Assembly: GCA_949293245.1 (NCBI GenBank)
Contig: CASFCS010000026.1
Coordinates: 1-64,000, forward strand
Direction of reading: 5' to 3'
DNA from: an uncultured bacterium
Lineage (GTDB): Bacteria > Bacillota > Clostridia > Oscillospirales > Oscillospiraceae
DNA: 64,000 nucleotides
The translations under genes and the position numbers were made by a program. Positions within the stretch are counted from its first letter, which is position 1. Each line of letters opens with the position of its first letter. A model generated the notes under the pieces. The model did no database searches, was not told the origin of the DNA, and was given only the letters and a program-made list of their open reading frames with translations. Shown piece by piece: positions 60,994-64,000 of the stretch.

Positions 60994-61054
60994 ATAAAAG
61001 CTGTCAGTTCTCCGGAAGAAAAAGAAAGGGCAGCGATAGAAAAGACATCAATAT

Positions 61055-61093
61055 GGGCCTATAGCTCAGCTGGGAGAGCGTTCGGTTCGCATC
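61055..61093 (+). pseudogene. Degenerate 5' half of a tRNA-Ala
   Basis: The first 26 bases (GGGCCTATAGCTCAGCTGGG then AGAGCG) are a perfect acceptor strand and D-arm of a bacterial tRNA-Ala. They are followed by TTCGG-TTCGCAT-CC, an anticodon loop identical to the intact gene at 61225, but the 3' anticodon stem does not pair and no T-arm or acceptor 3' strand follows. It looks like a tRNA fragment left by recombination or by sequence loss. Confidence 0.75.
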
Positions 61094-61224: not shown

Positions 61225-61300
61225 GGGCGGTTAGCTCAGCTGGGAGAGCGCGGCGTTCGCATCGCCGAGGTCGAGGGTTCGATCCCCTTACCGTCCACCA
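61225..61300 (+). tRNA. tRNA-Ala (anticodon CGC)
   Basis: Full cloverleaf: acceptor GGGCGGT/ACCGTCC including the alanine identity pair G3-U70, D-arm GCTC...GAGC, anticodon stem CGGCG/CGCCG around loop TTCGCAT with anticodon CGC (reads GCG), T-arm GAGGG-TTCGATC-CCCTT, and encoded CCA. A terminator follows at once. Confidence 0.93.
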
Positions 61301-61388: not shown

Positions 61389-61423
61389 CGGGCACCCCCT
61401 TCTCGGGAGTGCCCGCCTTTTTT
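61389..61423 (+). terminator. Second terminator-like hairpin downstream of tRNA-Ala
   Basis: Stem CGGGCAC / GTGCCCG with a partly paired interior, followed by CCTTTTTTG. Between the two terminators TTTGACCAC occurs twice (61342 and 61374), a possible short direct repeat at an integration boundary. From 61424 to 61583 I see no supported gene. Confidence 0.65.
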
Positions 61424-61583
61424 GTTTACAGCGGCCCAGAAGTTGAGGGGCTTTCTTCGGAATCTGGGATATGACGGTGACCTGGCCAGCGCCTACGACC
61501 ACTTTATGCGCCGGACGATGTTCCTCCAGCGCATAGAGGAGGTTCAGAGTTCCAGAGGCCTAAAAGCGAGCCAAGATATTTTG

Positions 61584-62336
61584 TTATCCTTCAAACTTCT
61601 CAATCCGGCAGAGCCCCATTTTCCCCCACGGGCCGCTGACCATTTTGCCCAGGGCCGAAGAAATTTGTATGGCGTGCTCTGCGTTAGCCGCGATCAGGAA
61701 GTAATCTCTCACAGTGCCTTTTGGGCAGGTAAGAACGGATACCGGTTTATTTTGAACCCCTTCGATTCCAAGCAATCTTTCTTTGAACTCCGGGAAAAAG
61801 GTCTCCGGCTTTTTCCGGGGACGGTGATTGTAGAGCACCACACTTTGTCCCCGCTTCAAGTAATCGCTCAGTTCTTCGTCCCATACATACTTGACGCTTT
61901 TCGCCGAACGCTTTCCAACGCTCTTCACGCTGAGACCATTGTCGGGATCCAGAAAAACAATCTCACAAGGTGCCAATGTCTCCAAGGCATTGTTGTGCCA
62001 CTGATATCGGCCAGCAACAGAAATCGCTTCGTGATAATACACTGTTTTACCGGGATTCAGAAGAGCTGCTTGTTCCAGCTGAGCAATGGAACGTACATCA
62101 CTTTCCGAGATTTCACGCAGCGCACCAGCCAGGGGTTCGTCACACACGAAATACTTCGGATTGATTTTGTGTTTTCCATCCTCATGGAGAAAGGTGCCAG
62201 TATCTTTGTCCCGCTCGCTTTCCGGCGGCTCTGCCTTATACCAGTTGACACCCAAAGAAAAACCCTCCGAAAGAAGTGCTTTCAAAAGTCCGAATTTCCC
62301 AAAATCACCAATGTCGCCCGCATATCGATCCTGCAT
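61584..62336 (-). CDS. Unrecognised conserved protein of accessory island, DPDNG motif
   Basis: A 250-residue soluble protein starting MQDRYAGDIGDFGKFGLLKALL. Conserved-looking features: the N-terminal motif RYAGDIGDFGKFGLL, a GVNWYKAEP strand, HEDGKHKINP, and VFLDPDNGLSVKSVG after a predicted strand. That last segment is shaped like motif IV of Rossmann-fold methyltransferases (D-P-P-Y-like), but I do not claim the activity. SVVLYNHRPRKK and KPVSVLTCPKGTVRDYFLIAA follow. I recall similar GDIGDFGKFGLL proteins as hypotheticals near restriction or mobile genes, but cannot verify that. ATG 62336 follows GAGGGAATGT; GTG 62348 is an alternative. It is the last gene of a three-gene minus-strand operon, more AT-rich than the rest of the window. 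Confidence 0.78.
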   Translation of the reverse strand: MQDRYAGDIGDFGKFGLLKALLSEGFSLGVNWYKAEPPESERDKDTGTFLHEDGKHKINPKYFVCDEPLAGALREISESDVRSIAQLEQAALLNPGKTVYYHEAISVAGRYQWHNNALETLAPCEIVFLDPDNGLSVKSVGKRSAKSVKYVWDEELSDYLKRGQSVVLYNHRPRKKPETFFPEFKERLLGIEGVQNKPVSVLTCPKGTVRDYFLIAANAEHAIQISSALGKMVSGPWGKMGLCRIEKFEG

Positions 62337-62360
62337 ACATTCCCTCACTTTTTCAAACGC

Positions 62361-62909
62361 TCATGATGGATGTTCTTCCTCCGACAGGCGGAACACCACC
62401 ATCTCATCTATCGATATTTCACTCAGTTTGCAGGGGATACCGCCCCGAAGATAGGGCTGTAACTGATAAAATGCCATGCATTGCTCCAAATGCTCCAGCA
62501 GCTTGGCAGAGCGGCGGCGGTATCCATACTGCTTCAGCAGGGTTCGCAGCTTGATGCGCACATAACCGCAGTCCGAGAAAAATCGCAAGCGGAATCGCAC
62601 TTCTTTGAAGTACAAATCCAAATTCGAGAAATCACTGAGAAAGGATTCTTCACTGAGATGGGCACCGCAATCGGCGGCATCCCGCTGAATCACAGGAAAT
62701 TCCCGGTCGATACAGGGTTTCTCCCGAAGGTACAGCGACCAGTAGGCCACATCCAGCAGAAAGGTACGCCTGCTTTTCGCCAAATCCGGTGCAAGAAATG
62801 TCTGTTCCTCTGCCCATATTTTCTCCAAAAGCGCCGACTCCGCCCGGATGTCCAAGTCCCGGAAGCTCAGAAGCGCCGCCACGTCCAAAGCAGCATAAGG
62901 AAGCCCCAT
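62361..62909 (-). CDS. Unrecognised protein, middle gene of accessory operon
   Basis: A 182-residue soluble, mainly helical protein (MGLPYAALDVAALLSFRDLD, AESALLEKIWAEEQTFL). It is rich in aromatic and charged residues (YFKEVRFRLRFFSDCGYVRIKLRTLLKQYGYRRRS) with no membrane segment or catalytic signature that I recognise. Its ATG overlaps the stop of the helicase-HNH gene (TAATG), so expression is coupled to it. Lower GC than the surrounding chromosome suggests transfer. It may be an accessory or regulatory partner of the nuclease. Function unknown. Confidence 0.75.
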   Translation of the reverse strand: MGLPYAALDVAALLSFRDLDIRAESALLEKIWAEEQTFLAPDLAKSRRTFLLDVAYWSLYLREKPCIDREFPVIQRDAADCGAHLSEESFLSDFSNLDLYFKEVRFRLRFFSDCGYVRIKLRTLLKQYGYRRRSAKLLEHLEQCMAFYQLQPYLRGGIPCKLSEISIDEMVVFRLSEEEHPS

Positions 62910-64000
62910 TACTGGTCCCCCTTGCGTCCATTACAGCTGCGGCACAGGATCTGCAGATTTTCCGGCACGCTCTTTCCACCTTTGTTCATGGGGAGGATAT
63001 GATCCACTTGAAAGGGAACCCTGCTGGCCGCTTCCATGCCGCAGCAGGCACAGCGATAGGTTCCCTGCGGCGTTTGGGCCTTGTCAAAGGCCCCATCTCT
63101 CAGTTCTTTTTCTCTCTGGGGATCCAGCTTGCCGATCTCATAGAGGGGGAGATCTTCCAACGCCTTGGTGTCATAAGTAATATGCTCGTCATAGAGGCCG
63201 GGATGGGCCAGCTTGTTTTTCTCGATCTCCACCTGATGCATAAAGTATAGCTTTCGCCCAAAGAACAGCCGCAGAAGGTTGTCATCCCCCTGGTTCCAAA
63301 GCGAATCAACATACTCCGCCGCTTTCCTCTGACCCATATCCTCATCCCAAATGTGTTTGGCAATGGCTCCCACATCCAGACGGCTGCGGTCAATATGGTC
63401 AAAGGTATAGAAGGCAGGGGCTGCCTCATACTGGGCATAGTACTTCAAAATGCGCACCACATCATCTGTTGAGTAAGGCGGGATCATCTCGCCGCAGAAA
63501 TAGGTATTCCGGCACTGGCGCTCCATCTGCCTCAGAACTTCCTTGGGCAGATACTCCTCTGTCGCACCAAAACTTGAAAAGAGGGCGGGCAAATTCTTCA
63601 TCATCTGGCGGTAGGCCTCTGCCGTACTGTCATAGACCATGACCTGACAGGAGAGGTCCATGCCGTTTTCCTCCAGATAGGAAAAGGCATACATCCCCAC
63701 GGGGATCCGCTGGGTAAAAGGCACCTTCTCCAAGGCAGTGGTATCGATGGAGTTATCCAGCATGGTAGCAAATTCTTCAATTTTGGAGAGGGAAATCATG
63801 CGGATTTCCCTCTGAATGCGGTCTGCCATATCGTCCGAGAACTCGTTATTCCCTTCAAACAGGCTCTCGGGATTGACCCAGGCGATATGCTCATCCCAGT
63901 CGTCCACAAAGGATACGATGTAGGCGGTATCCGTTCCTCCTGCAGCGGGTCCGCGCAGTGCGCGTCCCACCATCTGGGTCATCAGAATGGTGGAGACGGT
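62909..64000 (-). CDS. SF2 helicase with C-terminal HNH nuclease, N-terminus beyond window
   Basis: The 363 visible codons are the C-terminal part. They open with superfamily 2 helicase motif VI (TQMVGRALRGPAAGGT), so the ATPase core lies past 64000. A long helical middle follows (about 60-310 of the visible part). The end is an HNH endonuclease: CACCGMEAASRVPFQVDHILPMNKGG and LQILCRSCNGRKGD, with zinc cysteines CxxC...CxxC and the catalytic DH pair. This architecture (DNA/RNA translocase plus HNH) is typical of phage-defence or restriction-like genes. It is the first visible gene of the island operon and overlaps the next by TAATG. Confidence 0.88.
   Translation of the reverse strand, partial: TVSTILMTQMVGRALRGPAAGGTDTAYIVSFVDDWDEHIAWVNPESLFEGNNEFSDDMADRIQREIRMISLSKIEEFATMLDNSIDTTALEKVPFTQRIPVGMYAFSYLEENGMDLSCQVMVYDSTAEAYRQMMKNLPALFSSFGATEEYLPKEVLRQMERQCRNTYFCGEMIPPYSTDDVVRILKYYAQYEAAPAFYTFDHIDRSRLDVGAIAKHIWDEDMGQRKAAEYVDSLWNQGDDNLLRLFFGRKLYFMHQVEIEKNKLAHPGLYDEHITYDTKALEDLPLYEIGKLDPQREKELRDGAFDKAQTPQGTYRCACCGMEAASRVPFQVDHILPMNKGGKSVPENLQILCRSCNGRKGDQ

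Follow-up and report, generated by a model that had tools for sequence, protein, structure and literature searches.

The described enzyme closest in fold to the protein considered here is RlmJ, the 23S rRNA m6A2030 methyltransferase (DUF519, PF04378), and PMC3814359 reports that its residues K18 and D164 are essential, that D15 positions K18 and that N12 touches the substrate adenine. Our protein resembles RlmJ in its whole-chain fold (Z 11.1-11.2, ~200 residues), in a Lys-Asp pair, in the positioning Asp of the motif X helix and in the order of its elements, and differs from it in having no DTHAGxGxY loop, in carrying DPDNG for DPPY and in having no counterparts of Y4, H6 and H19. TcmP, the three-Cys-motif partner (TIGR04474), has a similar motif IV, FLDPYGL as compared with FLDPDNGL, but unlike our protein it retains a SAM loop, YIDAFAGTG. 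The ADP-ribose conflict modules of PMC9503650 (macro, ARH, PARG, NADAR, KptA) are alike in their gene neighbourhoods and through one NADAR fusion, whereas the domain itself resembles none of the macro, NADAR and ART domains; the available part of that paper contains no RlmJ-like or methyltransferase component, and the word methyltransferase has 0 occurrences there.

The window, the whole 64,000-nucleotide stretch of DNA that was analysed, encodes the protein on its minus strand. An open reading frame at 61584-62348, open to a GTG at 62348, contains both GDIGDFGKFGLL and LDPDNGL. The internal ATG (MQDRY...) at 62336 has an AGGGA-like sequence just upstream and agrees with the starts of homologues; by sequence it is the better start. 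The gene is accordingly given as 61584-62336, with a product of 250 amino acids that holds both motifs and that we list as an RlmJ-fold protein from the reading frame, the homologue alignment and the fold model. Within it, the N-terminal motif MQDRYAGDIGDFGKFGLL occupies residues 1-18 (62283-62336, minus strand), strand 1 and the loop that follows it occupy residues 29-53 (62178-62252, minus strand), and the DPDNG motif, residues 130-134 (61935-61949, minus strand), sits at a strand end, where RlmJ has DPPY. Both the window genome and contig L015, which is 98% identical, keep this frame open. An antisense open reading frame at 61422-62366 overlaps the gene.

A pattern-based search of genome contigs yielded 411 matching stretches, 359 of them relatives of the protein, and the best 80 of these 359 were retained. 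In the homologue alignment every one of the 64 rows has M1, Y5, G7, D8, D11, K14, W32 and G54, together with R110, W113, D130, P131, D132, N133, E155 and R210. The core of the family thus consists of DPDN and, in the first motif, of Y-G-D-D-K, all constant across the 64 aligned homologues; judging from the relatives and their alignment, neither motif is a product of chance. The motif pair on which the original prediction was built is therefore borne out, both motifs lying in one minus-strand gene and being conserved across homologues. Pfam, NCBIfam, PHROG and PADLOC models gave no meaningful match to the protein; a scan of 64 family members against family models returned matches that were weak, confined to few members and mutually unrelated, and sequence searches of the PDB gave no meaningful match either. 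The literature, which can be searched by words and not by sequence, yielded no description of the family, which appears to be unnamed and is without a model in any library used.

An AlphaFold2 model built on a 61-sequence alignment has a mean pLDDT of 96.6 and a pTM of 0.93. Its top Foldseek match is RlmJ (E 1e-3, probability 0.99), and a structural aligner superposes 203 residues on RlmJ (Z 11.1, rmsd 4.3). In all, ten entries of the RlmJ/DUF519 type score Z 9.6-11.1, followed by spermidine synthase as the next fold at Z 8.0 and by other methyltransferases lower down; among viral models Foldseek found nothing at E 0.001. A separate model of the divergent homologue L098 (pLDDT 89.8) again gives RlmJ, with Z 11.2 over ~204 residues and the next fold at 7.9. 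On these models the protein is assigned an RlmJ-like class I methyltransferase fold. The Rossmann-type protein expected from the motif pair is thus what structure prediction and fold search return, since the closest solved fold is that of the methyltransferase RlmJ, on the target and on a second homologue alike, and not a fold unrelated to Rossmann enzymes. The likeness to RlmJ is one of common fold and not of common function. Profile comparison of the family with RlmJ by HHalign, whether local or global, does not reach significance (E 0.33), and we therefore call the protein RlmJ-like in fold without placing it in the RlmJ family. PF04378 (DUF519) does not match the protein (0 of 1 in the search of its own genome).

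Both structural alignments, that of the target and that of L098, begin with an offset of 4, model residue 1 or 2 pairing with RlmJ residue 5 or 6, and the sole profile-level local match between the family and RlmJ gives the identical register. With this offset Y5, G7, D8, D11 and K14 fall on RlmJ H9, G11, N12, D15 and K18, and further along the chain D130 and P131 are in register with RlmJ D164 and P165. The counterparts of the essential K18 and D164 are thus K14 and D130, both invariant (64/64), as is D11, the counterpart of D15. In the models, then, the Lys-Asp catalytic pair of RlmJ and the Asp that positions its lysine appear to be kept in the family, and much of the adenine-pocket segment is kept as well. 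The cofactor signature is a different matter. The SAM loop pattern is found in 1 of 64 rows of the family versus 10 of 11 RlmJ rows (and in 7 of 12 TcmP rows, some of which are incomplete), the DTHAGAGRY loop of RlmJ being replaced by GVNWY, and the catalytic DPPY reads DPDN(G) in all 64 rows. RlmJ Y4 and H6, which are essential, have no counterpart, 62 of the 64 rows having Q2 where RlmJ has H6, and the alignment provides none for H19.

These data bear directly on the reading of the protein as a SAM-dependent RlmJ-type nucleic-acid methyltransferase with a divergent SAM site that modifies RNA or DNA in mobile elements. It is a serious rival, favoured by a nearest fold that is RlmJ, with other methyltransferases after it, and by the retained Lys-Asp pair, and a SAM loop that is not recognisable does not prove that SAM binding is lost. 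However, the SAM loop pattern, the motif IV and the Y4, H6 and H19 positions all count against it, as does a predicted secondary structure that, from strand 1 to strand 4, has one strand-helix unit less than RlmJ, and overall we give this reading somewhat less weight than our preferred one. Of the suggestion that the protein is a methyltransferase, the fold stands, and the activity is no more than a proposal, since neither the classical SAM loop nor DPPY is present.

The profile of TcmP is related to that of RlmJ (E 1.3e-5), whereas comparison of our family with TcmP is not convincing (E 0.006, probability 6%), and the 64 members together match 15 families, TIGR04474 not among them. DUF5131, which we take to be the partner of TcmP, is matched by 2 of 111 neighbour proteins, and two DUF5131-like frames seen by eye are both in L086, beside the homologue.

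The invariant residues admit other readings of the same scaffold. One is a nuclease or phosphoesterase that would use the acidic DPDNG cluster with E155, K149, H171 and R210: invariant acidic and basic residues lie at the ends of predicted strands, and GIY-YIG neighbours (L054, E 7.4e-5; weaker in L014, 0.0059) and a 2H phosphoesterase next to the homologue in L045 suggest nucleic-acid processing, yet no nuclease family or fold was matched convincingly and the top fold is that of a methyltransferase, which leaves this reading improbable. Equally improbable, in our estimate, is a non-catalytic binder, such as a sensor, antitoxin or inhibitor, on a retained methyltransferase scaffold. The vanished cofactor signature would fit a binder, and so would the recurrent occurrence of the domain fused to or beside catalytic domains, NADAR among them, but sixteen residues are invariant across distant phyla, and because many of these are polar and at strand ends we regard them as an active-site pattern.

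The gene closes a run of five on one strand in an island that is bordered by a tRNA-Ala and in part extends past the window on the same contig. The island comprises a 156-aa gene with weak Mrr-type matches, a 458-aa gene with a DUF6884 match (E 1.2e-40; L007:7186-8562, equivalent to 65186-66562 of contig C26 and so beyond the window), a RadD-like helicase of 750 aa that carries an HNH domain at its C-terminus, an orphan of 182 aa and the target. The C-terminal part of the helicase gene is at 62909-64000 (minus strand), its start lying beyond the window, and the 182-aa gene, which belongs to no family, is upstream of the target at 62361-62909 (minus strand). A GIY-YIG reading of the C-terminal region of the 458-aa gene, made by eye, was set aside as being without Pfam support. 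Two integrase genes, also recognised by eye, lie upstream of the five-gene set. The tRNA-Ala(CGC) at the border (61225-61300, plus strand) is a plausible integration site. A decayed tRNA-like copy at 61051-61093, 170 bp from the intact tRNA-Ala and 81% identical over 43 nt to its start, is probably a relic of integration; a direct repeat as an integration mark was looked for at the far side of the island and not found.

The original prediction had proposed that a methyltransferase here could form a restriction-like pair with the HNH helicase, in which it would supply the protection. Among the loci examined, the helicase-HNH gene is next to a target homologue only in the window and in L015, which at 98% identity is probably the same element; the other helicase match among the loci then examined is in L057, 34% identical over 481 aa and five genes away. 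The 182-aa gene that stands between helicase and target is found in 1 of 245 class genomes, its own, and in L015. The pairing is not conserved and was dropped, no conserved nuclease partner of a restriction-modification methyltransferase being seen at these loci; the target probably does not provide the protection in a restriction system. For the methyltransferase reading in general, restriction genes near some homologues, McrBC by Pfam and HsdR by eye, are in its favour, but a conserved restriction partner is lacking. RhuM genes (Pfam) and DUF262 types (by eye) also occur near some homologues.

We found a different association when the neighbourhoods of the family were compared across 93 loci, grouped at 70% identity into 55 clusters. 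Of these clusters, 6 (L019+L095, L064+L096, L039, L056, L043 and L149) have a macro-domain gene within 3 kb and none has one at 3-8 kb, and an ADP-ribosylglycohydrolase (ARH) gene lies within 3 kb in 4 (L019+L095, L030+L039, L065 and L069), with one far match. The chance expectation in equal flanking DNA is ~0.08 clusters for macro and ~0.10 for ARH, as calculated from 148 class genomes with 101 macro and 124 ARH matches (the latter entered as 125), taking genomes to average 2.5 Mb. ADP-ribose-processing genes are linked to the family above background in this post hoc test, whose neighbour HMMs were seeded from loci already seen; the single macro case that lies outside the HMM seed is L149, which came from an independent sample of genomes. 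It may be that macro genes are just frequent in defence islands. In 47 of the 55 clusters no macro or ARH gene stands within 3 kb, and the window island, which is without macro, ARH and NADAR, is among them, the macro and ARH genes of the window genome being on other contigs. Further links come from single loci and one clade: in Coriobacteriaceae the family domain is fused to NADAR in one open frame (E 2.9e-45; L022 and L037 by Pfam, L023 by eye), L069 has ARH and microbial PARG genes in a row (PARG E 5.1e-30), L062 has a KptA gene, a GNAT-KptA gene, near the target homologue, and the 2H phosphoesterase of L045 belongs to this set as well.

Our preferred reading, to which we give a probability of roughly 40%, is that the protein is an RlmJ-fold conflict enzyme with a remodelled cofactor pocket that works with ADP-ribose chemistry in phage-host conflict. 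The fold, the family, the lost SAM signature, the Lys-Asp pair and the mobility are firm, and the reaction is what we infer. As an active enzyme with such a pocket, the protein would recognise an adenine-containing group and would act as an accessory to ADP-ribose chemistry alongside macro, ARH, PARG or NADAR hydrolases; its substrate might be ADP-ribosylated nucleic acid or nucleotides derived from NAD or ADP-ribose. In the window it would do so from the end of an operon, on the tRNA-Ala-linked island, that also holds helicase-HNH and DUF6884 genes. A bolder version, which we think unlikely as it stands, makes it a phage-conflict enzyme of a new class, in which an RlmJ-type scaffold has kept the Lys-Asp pair and taken up, in place of SAM, a nucleotide derived from NAD or ADP-ribose, or else an ADP-ribosylated base, so as to serve as a writer, eraser or processor beside macro, ARH or NADAR hydrolases. 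A methyltransferase fold that has apparently lost its SAM signature but not its catalytic pair, and that is linked with ADP-ribose erasers, offers a testable route to new nucleotide chemistry in bacterial immunity or counter-defence.

The distribution of the family is that of a mobile, dispensable gene, patchy, horizontally scattered and sometimes decayed; the loci that carry it are of mobile or defence type, and the protein is probably a mobile phage-conflict enzyme. In whole-genome samples the gene is found in 5 of 391 genomes of the class and 9 of 398 of the phylum, several of the matches being fragmentary or interrupted, and by record titles the family ranges over Bacillota, Actinomycetota, Pseudomonadota, Bacteroidota, Nitrospirota, Campylobacterota and one archaeon. 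A plasmid search gave 3 records with the family, divergent queries returning identical records or a subset, and searches of phage records with the target and a divergent query gave no family member. In loci L151 and L154, both viral contigs, a homologue stands amid genes that by eye resemble phage structural or packaging genes, in the manner of a 'moron'. L011:8016-8294 is a shortened copy with the N- and C-terminal parts present and the middle absent, and in L065 an N-terminal remnant lies upstream of a full copy.

Several homologues have additional partners. A small gene with the motif TLCGSTRF, nucleoside-deoxyribosyltransferase-like by eye, adjoins the homologue in L045, L049, L056, L098 and L150; these neighbours were left uncounted because those of L056 and L098 have no Pfam or NCBIfam match. 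The homologue at L058:3902-5356 bears a C-terminal extension of ~240 aa with no Pfam match, and those of L087 and L088 bear one that is ACT-like by eye. In four Ruminococcus loci (L048, L050, L054 and L060) the domain and a short-chain dehydrogenase-like domain share one open frame by eye, and in L062 and L059 a short-chain dehydrogenase-like gene is a separate neighbour of the homologue.
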